13,080 nucleotides of DNA, from the NCBI GenBank assembly GCA_024691465.1, contig JAILNO010000025.1, positions 1 to 13,080 of the forward strand, read 5' to 3'. Positions 5,199 to 8,565 of this stretch are shown piece by piece; positions within the stretch are counted from its first letter, which is position 1; each line of letters opens with the position of its first letter. Origin of the DNA: Pseudobutyrivibrio sp. Its GTDB lineage: Bacteria > Bacillota_A > Clostridia > Lachnospirales > Lachnospiraceae. Under the pieces are notes generated by a model, which saw nothing but the letters and a program-made list of their open reading frames with translations, searched no databases and was not told where the DNA came from. Made by a program: the position numbers and the translations under genes.

Positions 5199-6002
5199 TT
5201 ATACCTGACCCACCTGATTAACTGTCTTATCAAGTGTAGAATCTTCTGTCTGAATCATCTTCTGTCCTGCTTCATAAGCTCTGGCTATCTGAATCATGCT
5301 AACCATCTCGTCAACTACATTGACATTGGATGCTTCAAGCATACCCTGTTCCATATAGCCCTCACTCTCAACAATCTCACCACCGTCAATAAGTGTGTAG
5401 AGATTCTCGCCATATTTATTTATGTAATCGTAATCTGCAATATCAATAAGTCCGATGGTATCAACCTCCTCACCATTCTGAGTGATAGTACCATCCGTTG
5501 CGATAGCATATTCATAATTAGGATCAATCTGAACCCTATAGCCATCACCATACTCTGTATTAAGAGCACCATCAGAATTAAGCACGTACTCACCATTAGA
5601 TGTCCTGAGGTATCCCTCACTATCTACTGTAAAAGCTCCATCTCTAGTGTACATAACTGATGTCTCACCAGCCTTGTTAGTGTACTCAATAGCAAAGAAG
5701 CCCTTGCCAGCTATAGCAACATCAGATGGTGTATCTGTAATCTGCATAGCCCCCTGGTCCCAATTAGTGTAGGTCTCGCCTACCTTAGTTCCAAGGGAAA
5801 TATAACCAATTGACTCAGGTCTGTTAGCTAAAGCAGATGTATCCTTAATCTTGATTGCTAATCTATCATCAAAAGACTGTGCTACCATAGCTTCCTTCTT
5901 GAAACCAGTGGTGCTAGAATTAGCTAGATTATTGGTCATAACGTCCATACGTTTCTGCTCGTTAATCATGCCTGTATAGGCTGTATATAATCCTTTTACC
6001 AT
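5199..6002 (-). CDS. flhO: Flagellar rod protein of the FlgF/FlhO family
   Basis: A 267-residue flagellar basal-body rod protein, probably of the proximal rod. The N-terminus carries LYTAYTGM and TNNLANSSTTGFKK (23-36), and the C-terminus LEASNVNVVDEMVSMIQIAR followed by AYEAGQKMIQTED (222-254). These are the two conserved halves of the D0 domain shared by rod and hook proteins. The middle contains AGKGFFAIE and MYTRDGAF, the D1 signature. An AAGGGAG ribosome-binding site stands five bases before the ATG at 6002. A sigma-D-like promoter (6049-6075) starts this operon, so it can be transcribed with other late flagellar genes independently of mbl. The FlgF versus FlgG assignment rests on synteny, since the families are close paralogues. 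Confidence 0.9.
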   Translation of the reverse strand: MVKGLYTAYTGMINEQKRMDVMTNNLANSSTTGFKKEAMVAQSFDDRLAIKIKDTSALANRPESIGYISLGTKVGETYTNWDQGAMQITDTPSDVAIAGKGFFAIEYTNKAGETSVMYTRDGAFTVDSEGYLRTSNGEYVLNSDGALNTEYGDGYRVQIDPNYEYAIATDGTITQNGEEVDTIGLIDIADYDYINKYGENLYTLIDGGEIVESEGYMEQGMLEASNVNVVDEMVSMIQIARAYEAGQKMIQTEDSTLDKTVNQVGQV

Positions 6003-7129: not shown

Positions 7130-7169
7130 GATAAATAATCCTTTCCATTAACTAATATGTAGTATATAA

Positions 7170-7185
7170 ATGCCCATTTGGGCAT
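7170..7185. repeat. Short inverted repeat in the mbl leader
   Basis: ATGCCCA, two bases, TGGGCAT. It lies about 15-30 bases into the predicted mbl transcript, roughly 40 bases before the start codon. The two-base centre is too tight for an RNA hairpin without opening a pair, and it fits a protein-binding dyad equally well. Its role is unknown. Confidence 0.45.
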
Positions 7186-7207
7186 AAAATCGCAATTTCA
7201 CGTTTCT

Positions 7208-7235
7208 ATTATAAACTAAAATCCCTAAGATTCAA
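7208..7235 (-). promoter_or_regulatory. Sigma-A-type promoter of mbl
   Basis: On the minus strand TTGAAT (7230-7235), a 16-base spacer and a perfect TATAAT (7208-7213). Start predicted near 7201, leaving a leader of about 70 nt that includes the 7170-7185 dyad. Confidence 0.72.
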
Positions 7236-7249
7236 GAGTGTTTTCATAG

Positions 7250-7503
7250 CTATAGATTCTTGTTTTTCATCTGAAAAACAGGAATCGTCTCTGACCAACT
7301 TTTACATGTAATGGAAAAGTTGTCCTGCGAAGCAGGATTCTTGCGGGAGTTTTCATTATTTTCCCGCAAGAAGTCATGACTTCTTGTGGGCAACTTAAGG
7401 AAAATGCCCACAAGAACTTGGCTTTGCCAAGCAATATTTTCTTTCAGAAAATATTGGTCTGTGTCCGGTTTTTGATTTTCTGATGAAAATCAAAAACCTA
7501 TAG
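7250..7503. repeat. 254-bp hairpin-array element with overall twofold symmetry
   Basis: No open reading frame fills this stretch; it is almost entirely inverted repeats. In order: 7255-7269 with 7272-7286 (14 of 15 pairs); 7293-7303 with 7315-7324 (one bulge); 7323-7328 with 7332-7337; 7338-7348 with 7362-7372 (11 of 11); a perfect 18-bp palindrome AAGAAGTCATGACTTCTT at 7368-7385; 7381-7392 with 7405-7416 (12 of 12); 7417-7422 with 7426-7431; 7433-7442 with 7446-7455 (10 of 10); 7467-7480 with 7485-7498 (14 of 14). The whole is also a diverged inverted duplication. The plus strand of 7250-7376 and the minus strand of 7503-7377 are both 127 bases, both begin CTATAG and both end AAGAAGTCA. They share a G-A-C-C-A-A stretch after the first hairpin and TTCTTG-x-GGG in the fourth. 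It occupies most of the mbl/purM gap. No transposase is nearby. It could be a MITE- or BIME-like repeat, a structured RNA in the purM leader, or a DNA-level element; I do not recognise it. Confidence 0.85.
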
Positions 7504-7539
7504 ATTATTAATCAACTATAAGATTTAAAGGAGAGAAAC

Positions 7540-8565
7540 ATGGATTACAAGAGTTCAGGAGTTGATATCGAGGCAGGTTATGAGTCAGTAGAGCTCATGA
7601 AGAAGTTTGTTAAGGGTACTATGAGACCAGAGGTACTTGGCGGACTTGGTGGTTTTTCGGGAGCATTTGACTTAAGTGCTATCAAGAATATGGATGAGCC
7701 AGTCCTTCTGTCTGGTACAGATGGTTGTGGCACTAAGGTTAAGCTTGCCTTCCTTATGGACAAGCACGATACAATCGGTATCGATGCAGTTGCAATGTGT
7801 GTTAACGATGTAGCATGCGCTGGTGGCGAGCCACTATTTTTCCTTGATTATATTGCATGCGGTAAGAATATCCCTGAGAAGATTGCCACAATCGTTAGTG
7901 GTGTAGCTGAGGGATGTAAGCAGTCTGGCTGCGCACTTGTAGGTGGTGAGACAGCTGAGCACCCAGGCCTTATGCCTGAGGAAGAGTACGATCTTGCTGG
8001 ATTTGCAGTAGGCATCGTTGATAAGAAGGATATTATCACAGGTGCTGATCTTAAGGATGGGGATGTCCTCATCGGTATGGCATCTACTGGTGTTCATTCT
8101 AATGGTTTCTCTCTTGTTCGTAAGATTTTCGATATGACTAAAGAAAGTCTTGATAAATATTATGATGAATTAGGTTGCACTCTCGGCGAGGCACTTATTG
8201 CTCCTACACGTATCTATGTTAAGGCTCTCAAGGCTGTTAAGGATGCAGGTGTTAGAGTTAAGGCTTGCTCACATATTACAGGTGGTGGCTTCTATGAGAA
8301 TATTCCACGTATGCTTCCAGAGGGCAAGCGTGCAGTAGTTGAGAAGGATTCTTATGAGGTTCCTGCTATCTTTAAGCTCATGGCTAGAGAGGGTAATGTA
8401 TCAGAGCAGATGATGTACAACACCTACAATATGGGTATTGGTATGATTGTTGCAGTTGATCCCGCTGATGTAGATAAAACCATGGAGGCTATGCGCTCTG
8501 CTGGAGATACTCCTTATGTAGTTGGTAAGATTGTAGACGGCGACAAGGGTGTAGACTTAGTTTAG
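7540..8565 (+). CDS. purM: Phosphoribosylformylglycinamidine cyclo-ligase (AIR synthetase)
   Basis: A 341-residue cytoplasmic enzyme of de novo purine synthesis that closes formylglycinamidine ribonucleotide to aminoimidazole ribonucleotide using ATP. Conserved segments are in order: DGCGTK (61-66; the family usually has DGVGTK), CVNDVACAGGEPLFFLDY (87-104), LVGGETAEHPG (133-143), STGVHSNGFSLVR (182-194), HITGGGFYENIPR (245-257) and TYNMGIGM (295-302). Length is normal. The ATG at 7540 follows AAAGGAGAG (7527-7535) at proper spacing. It is first in purM-purN-purD, with purN starting eight bases after its stop. No clear sigma-A promoter lies in the short gap between the 254-bp hairpin element and the gene, so the element may be transcribed as part of its leader. 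Confidence 0.97.
   Translation: MDYKSSGVDIEAGYESVELMKKFVKGTMRPEVLGGLGGFSGAFDLSAIKNMDEPVLLSGTDGCGTKVKLAFLMDKHDTIGIDAVAMCVNDVACAGGEPLFFLDYIACGKNIPEKIATIVSGVAEGCKQSGCALVGGETAEHPGLMPEEEYDLAGFAVGIVDKKDIITGADLKDGDVLIGMASTGVHSNGFSLVRKIFDMTKESLDKYYDELGCTLGEALIAPTRIYVKALKAVKDAGVRVKACSHITGGGFYENIPRMLPEGKRAVVEKDSYEVPAIFKLMAREGNVSEQMMYNTYNMGIGMIVAVDPADVDKTMEAMRSAGDTPYVVGKIVDGDKGVDLV

Follow-up and report, generated by a model that had tools for sequence, protein, structure and literature searches.

Short palindromic mobile repeats of Bacteria are known mostly as REPs, as ends-only elements of the IS200/IS605 type, and as MITEs with inverted repeats. Classic MITEs are short, non-coding, multi-copy, and mobile; ERIC sequences, known from other bacteria, are about 127 bp long, intergenic, and palindromic; and elements of the IS110 type target repeats. 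One account presents REPs as palindromes of 20-40 bp, and describes REP, BIME, and REPIN as intergenic palindromic repeats, single or paired, which are hypothesised to be moved by a transposase (PMC3733652). The ends-only elements called PATEs have a hairpin at either end, lack terminal inverted repeats, and insert 3' of a short fixed target of four or five bases, without duplication (PMC7290912). In IS200/IS605 elements, the foot of each hairpin is preceded on its 5' side by a guide tetranucleotide that is separate from the cleavage site (PMC6006769), and the elements follow the direction of replication (PMC5371812). The four-hairpin family described here had none of these complete signatures in the tests made, yet it looks recently mobile and shared between species. 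A keyword search of the literature, with subscription journals outside its scope, returned work on REP, RAYT, and IS200, and none on this element.

The window, by which we mean the whole stretch of 13,080 nt that was analysed, carries between mbl and purM an intergenic segment (7250-7503) made of two 127-base halves that lie tail to tail, with four hairpins each. We think it probable that these are two copies of a miniature non-autonomous mobile element. The eight hairpins and two inverted halves had been proposed in an earlier note on this DNA, and they are borne out by alignment and folding: aligned with each other, the halves reach a score of 51.5, whereas 500 dinucleotide shuffles average -1.5 and never exceed 13.5; the 254 nt are predicted to fold at -113.4 kcal/mol, while 200 shuffles give -54.0 +/- 4.5 (z = -13.3). 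Some details of that description had to be revised. The strong alignment of equal-length halves stands, but it needs several one- or two-base gaps where nearly none had been expected; the perfect central palindrome exists, but spans 20 bp (7367-7386) and not 18 bp (7368-7385). The 254 bp had also been taken as the element, whereas the natural unit is one half: most copies read stand alone, and the 254-bp stretch is one arrangement of this smaller unit, two copies joined tail to tail. The unit is about 124 nt long, with the layout AGR-hairpin1-linker-hairpin2-hairpin3-hairpin4-GTCAT. Setting its ends, AGR...GTCAT, by the rule that empty sites reveal (insertion after YAT, see below) places unit 1 at 7254-7377 on the plus strand and unit 2 at 7499-7376 on the minus strand, with the bases AT at 7376-7377 common to both. 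R1, a covariance model built from 18 copies that also reaches relatives with other stems, matches unit 1 at 7251-7376 (125.5 bits) and unit 2 at 7377-7502 on the minus strand (145.4 bits), its training set including the window's halves. The features are the following.

7251..7253, plus strand: target trinucleotide TAT (YAT), 5' of unit 1; from the window sequence and the YAT rule
7254..7377, plus strand: unit 1 (h1 type), AGATTC...GTCAT, 124 nt; from the R1 match and the end rule
7255..7286, plus strand: hairpin 1 of unit 1, 14-bp stem, tetraloop ATCT
7296..7322, plus strand: hairpin 2 of unit 1
7323..7337, plus strand: hairpin 3 of unit 1, TCCTGC-GAA-GCAGGA
7338..7372, plus strand: hairpin 4 of unit 1, followed by GTCAT
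7367..7386, no strand: 20-bp palindrome where the two 3' ends meet, GTCAT/GAC
7376..7499, minus strand: unit 2 (h2 type), AGG...GTCAT, 124 nt; from the R1 match and the end rule
7381..7416, minus strand: hairpin 4 of unit 2
7417..7431, minus strand: hairpin 3 of unit 2, CTTGGC-AAA-GCCAAG
7432..7456, minus strand: hairpin 2 of unit 2
7467..7498, minus strand: hairpin 1 of unit 2, 14-bp stem, tetraloop ATCA
7500..7502, minus strand: target trinucleotide TAT (YAT), 5' of unit 2; from the window sequence and the YAT rule

The earlier note had reasoned that many dispersed copies with empty sites elsewhere would favour a mobile repeat, and conservation restricted to the region upstream of purM a regulatory RNA. 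The search of relatives gave the former and, in 80 purM loci, not the latter. When the 254 bp were searched in ten genomes picked via purM, six had matches, most of the strong ones to one half; the purM records label these six as Pseudobutyrivibrio or Butyrivibrio fibrisolvens 16/4. Within the genus of P. ruminis DSM 9787 (G003), 24 of 29 genomes contain the element (E <= 1e-10). In 80 purM loci from relatives, local BLAST detected no copy, and its sole matches were chance pieces of 15-30 nt (E of at least 0.19). Presence in many genomes and absence from the purM loci identify a dispersed repeat rather than a conserved purM leader, and together with the exact empty sites they support the non-autonomous mobile repeat among the options first listed. 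The carriers of the mobile unit are a group of rumen and gut bacteria. The model gave 63 hits from 53 chosen sources, and 62 were kept after removal of one duplicate; leaving out eight for lack of flank or length, 52 of the 54 copies judged lie between predicted genes, 37 of them between genes of the same direction (21 and 16), 9 where the neighbouring genes diverge, 3 where they converge, and 3 with a single neighbour. An identical 126-nt sequence occupies different sites in four genomes (G001, G003, G012, and G028), which suggests recent movement and spread between species. Reduced forms exist too: at what appears to be the same site, G003 has a full unit (L083 1501-1628) and G011 has hairpin 4 alone (L130 1501-1542), and one-hairpin forms also occur in L095, L103, and L107. 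An origin from phages or plasmids was considered and rejected, since only short pieces matched and the exact motif pattern gave nothing in viral_contigs.

The ends of the unit are kept in most copies. Over 60 full copies, found with a model that itself includes these ends, the left edge Y-A-T/A-G (the slash marks the junction, here and below) is kept in 59, 57, 57, 59, and 59 copies, and the right edge G-T-C-A-T in 58, 60, 57, 54, and 55. We searched 18 joined flanks against the 29 genomes, and the 30 loci collected gave 26 pairs of filled and empty sites, at 8 sites, that span the junction. Six pairs at four sites (L102, L104, L117, and L121) match the predicted YAT/flank exactly over the four bases on either side. 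Among the 20 pairs with no exact match, mostly at diverged sites, two at L125 agree across the cut from YAT onwards and differ at base -4, L084 is off by one T from its closest empty counterpart, and the remaining 17 are diverged at the junction, chiefly at L090 and also at L123. At clean empty sites, the unit thus sits directly 3' of YAT (Y being C or T), with no duplication beyond an ambiguous AT; because this AT is common to both edges, the exact cut inside it cannot be placed.

The target rule also bears on how units become paired. The terminal GTCATA reads TATGAC on the other strand, which is a YAT target, so that a second unit can land tail to tail. Insertion at the GTCAT end gives a direct tandem with the joint GTCAT/AGG, and insertion at the TAT of the other strand gives a tail-to-tail pair with the joint GTCAT/GAC. 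Both forms occur, some with partial partners: direct tandems in L089, L114/L132, L119, L134, and L268, and tail-to-tail pairs in the window, L081, L113, and L118; looser examples are found in L115 and L131. The YAT rule would allow head-to-head dimers as well, but the loci collected had none, and their motif hits were single units or chance. The comparison with a BIME made in the earlier note holds for the arrangement in inverted or direct pairs, and as a likeness only. In the 26 genomes of the genus with matches to both sides, mbl and purM are found on separate contigs or no closer than about 0.6 Mb, so the dimer of the window (region 7130-7540) marks a rearrangement or an assembly join. Compared by eye, relatives have CTAT near the position of unit 1 upstream of mbl. 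Four relatives have, just upstream of purM, a different, GC-rich, structured-looking element, GAGC(T)AGCAC...GTGCTAGCGGA, at about 5800-5980 of their loci (L001, L002, L004, and L005); none was seen in L003, and L002 and L005 gave no Rfam hit for it.

The stems of the unit change in pairs. With 18 copies aligned without use of the structure, 82 cells carry double changes, compared with 29.2 +/- 4.0 after shuffling, and in 19 of 32 pairs both partners have changed, compared with 4-9 in slid controls; another measure of covariation, further pair types, gives a weak signal, with 14 of 500 shuffles attaining it. An alignment of 35 rows, which was fitted to the structure, has 288 double-change cells against 77.7 +/- 8.0 shuffled; in this fitted alignment, three rows of which are probably artefacts, covariation is seen in 31 of the 32 pairs, and pairing is retained in 97.6% of cells. 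Traits shared across families are the loop around ATCA in hairpin 1, the GACCAA or ATGGCA of the linker, a hairpin 3 that is short and has C-G beside its loop, mostly GAA or AAA, and a hairpin 4 before the end. Judging from these alignments, the predicted four-hairpin fold outlives its own sequence.

Relatives of this fold extend beyond the genus. Over 397 genomes of the bacterial family, R1 hit three, including G209, when 8 candidates were scored per genome, and a search that required exact bases hit two. Scoring 150 candidates in the genus of G209 revealed structural relatives in 7 of 17 genomes, some with other ends, e.g., YAT/AGGAT...AACCTAT; given this result of deeper scoring, the spread across the family is probably underestimated. 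In G209 itself, a different dispersed structured repeat hosts 17 copies of the module, always at one position, and also exists without the module in at least eight places. The core of this host repeat (L275-L304), GGGGTAATCTGAGCCCG...GGCGAAGCTAGCGAGAGCGTGCCCC, is conserved, whereas its long arms vary from copy to copy but remain complementary. Other repeats and RNAs were met in these genomes: a dispersed 526-nt repeat with palindromic ends (L199 8868-9393, also at G033 421057 and 1277163), of which the copy tested holds a TwoAYGGAY RNA (RF01731); a repeat of about 43 kb in G033:C1 (1-43275 and 90204-133477), either a duplication or an assembly artefact; and a THF riboswitch (L384 1385-1485) and a Clostridiales-1 RNA (L393 1983-2144) near four-hairpin modules.

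Such covariation could arise at the level of DNA or of RNA. A strand-specific RNA should tolerate G.U and not A.C, and the numbers of G.T and A.C mismatches were used for this reason to tell the two apart (3 of 63 rows and identical rows were dropped, as were 3 of the 35 rows of A2 that the covariation test kept). By cells, the excess of G.T over A.C (56 to 13) leans towards RNA, but a single pair contributes 26 of the 56, and changes are inherited by copies; by distinct states, there are 15 G.T, 9 A.C, and 17 others. Private variants of 45 h2-type copies fall in 22 of 4408 stem cells versus 11 of 1260 unpaired cells (p = 0.14), and those in stems comprise 4 G.T, 4 A.C, 9 other mismatches, and 5 that still pair. 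A pairing constraint is therefore seen between lineages and not clearly in resident copies. This would suit a constraint that acts at movement and on DNA, the numbers being small and the cell count leaning the opposite way; the DNA-level structure that the earlier note had listed is favoured and not proven. The GAA triloop, in the context GCGAAGC, is described in one source as an extraordinarily stable DNA mini-hairpin with a Tm of about 78 C (PMC4686876); this agrees with the DNA reading and proves nothing, and unit 2 has AAA. A structured RNA, either a small RNA or a cis-regulator, acting on purM or the flanking genes would account for the strong predicted fold, the covariation, and the cell count, yet we regard it as very improbable. 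The Rfam check returned no family at or above the gathering threshold for the window and no match on four-hairpin modules; the units occupy many intergenic places with no clear preferred strand; there are exact empty sites; and G.T to A.C falls to 15 to 9 by types and 4 to 4 by private variants. A structured RNA upstream of purM is thus not supported, and cis-regulation of purM, set aside in view of the 80 purM loci without a copy, the dispersal, and the empty sites, is very unlikely. An RNA serving the movement itself is conceivable. The perfection of the hairpins might also come from template-switch repair of quasi-palindromes rather than from selection for movement, a process that would yield mostly double Watson-Crick changes, as dominate here; it leaves unexplained the insertion, the fixed order of four hairpins, and the loops and linker kept across genera, and we find it improbable.

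If the unit is instead kept as DNA for its movement, the question is which enzyme would read it. Y1 transposases (PF01797) occur in 10 of the 29 genomes, all among the 24 with the element and none among the 5 that lack it. None was found in the copy-rich drafts G006, G023, G030, and G031, the seven IS200 copies that were compared, from G209 and G033, do not share the ends of the unit, and the 18 Y1 loci checked have no unit inside; among those compared, several in draft genomes, no Y1 partner with the ends of the unit was found. Hairpin 1 starts 1-3 nt past the cut, depending on its place within the AT, and thus abuts the left end with no room there for the guide tetranucleotide of IS200/IS605. 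Nor does the unit show an overall bias with respect to replication (32 against 36, p = 0.36; 27 against 31, p = 0.69), its direction being read from GC skew, a proxy whose sign was as expected in 266 of 277 test windows of G033. Among h2-like copies, a subset chosen post hoc, the split is 24 to 11 (p = 0.04), the rest lean the opposite way (7 to 16), and 14 of 18 G209 modules lie on one replication strand, but nested in another repeat; we treat both counts as leads only. Across 20 sampled places, the GC skew of G209:C1 falls into four segments of alternating sign rather than two, which suggests inversions or misassembly. A guide-RNA element of the TnpB type is not supported: PF07282 is present in 3 of 8 carriers and was not found in the other 5. 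There is a slim chance that the unit is a four-hairpin relative of REPs whose movement depends on a domesticated Y1 (RAYT) protein from a gene elsewhere. It is short, intergenic, palindromic, and found in pairs and tandems, hairpin 1 of its main family has ATAG at its foot, close to the GTAG of REPs, and Y1 proteins that look RAYT-like by a motif exist in G001, G005, G016, and G026. These are only 4 of 29 genomes, two of the proteins are short, no unit lies beside them, and inverted repeats are few around their genes (L111, L175, L171, and L112, of which L112 and L171 look short); the smaller size of REPs also counts against this reading. A somewhat better, still unlikely, account is a site-specific recombinase with an AT core, IS110/IS1111-like or IS607-like, that would move the unit in trans, the hairpins serving as recognition structure or as source of a guide RNA. 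The change from Y-AT-flank to Y-AT-(unit)-GTC-AT-flank amounts to recombination at a shared AT core, and the absence of an overall strand bias, the nesting of 17 modules at one place in G209, reminiscent of the targeting of repeats by IS110-type elements, and the presence of an IS110 transposase in G033 all speak for it. The three IS110 copies compared in G033, of one family and within 1.6 Mb, have unrelated ends, and the roughly three fixed bases of the target are fewer than a guided recombinase would be expected to read.

The product, the hairpin ends, and the constraint fit single-strand transfer of the IS200/IS605 type, but no matching partner, no guide at the left end, and no overall bias was found, and we therefore commit to a non-autonomous element that is read as folded DNA. 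Its life would involve 1) movement of the gene-less unit in trans by an enzyme that recognises folded DNA; 2) cutting after YAT and after the terminal GTCAT, and joining of the ends to a new YAT; 3) mobility restricted to copies with hairpins that still pair, so that stems would change in pairs between lineages; 4) accumulation in resident copies of private changes with no clear sign of pairing constraint; and 5) creation by each inserted copy of new YAT sites at its own 3' end, which would lead to tandems or tail-to-tail pairs. Our tentative choice for the chemistry, and the likeliest one, is HUH-type transfer of a single strand, with a site-specific recombinase that uses an AT core as the alternative. 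An autonomous copy with the two ends of the unit 1-3 kb apart was not noticed in the hit lists, which were read by eye. The filled and empty sites and the simple target rule offer a direct way into the recognition and movement of hairpin DNA in Clostridia. The family bears on how structure may be kept for mobility alone, and it is a warning that strong covariation by itself need not mean a functional RNA.

Compared with the systems described so far, the unit resembles several and coincides with none. Like REP, BIME, and REPIN, it is intergenic, palindromic, and single or paired, but it has about 124 nt, four ordered hairpins, a YAT target, and a GTCAT end; its main family lacks the GTAG or CGTC tag of REPs, and the loci checked have no adjacent RAYT. 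With PATEs and other ends-only IS200/IS605 elements, it has in common hairpins at both ends, the lack of terminal inverted repeats, and insertion 3' of a fixed target without duplication, this target being of three bases with an ambiguous AT at both edges; it differs from PATEs in its four hairpins, in that no parent with the same ends was found, and in having no overall replication-strand bias. It shares the general traits of classic MITEs but, unlike these DDE-associated elements, has neither terminal inverted repeats nor a target duplication beyond the ambiguous AT. Its likeness to ERIC is one of length and nature, by description only. It is possible, though we hold this with some doubt, that the family represents a new class: gene-less DNA with an ordered four-hairpin fold that is kept while the stems turn over almost completely, moved in its folded state by an enzyme that belongs to none of the known partnerships (Y1, TnpB, and DDE), and capable of nesting at one set position in another structured repeat.
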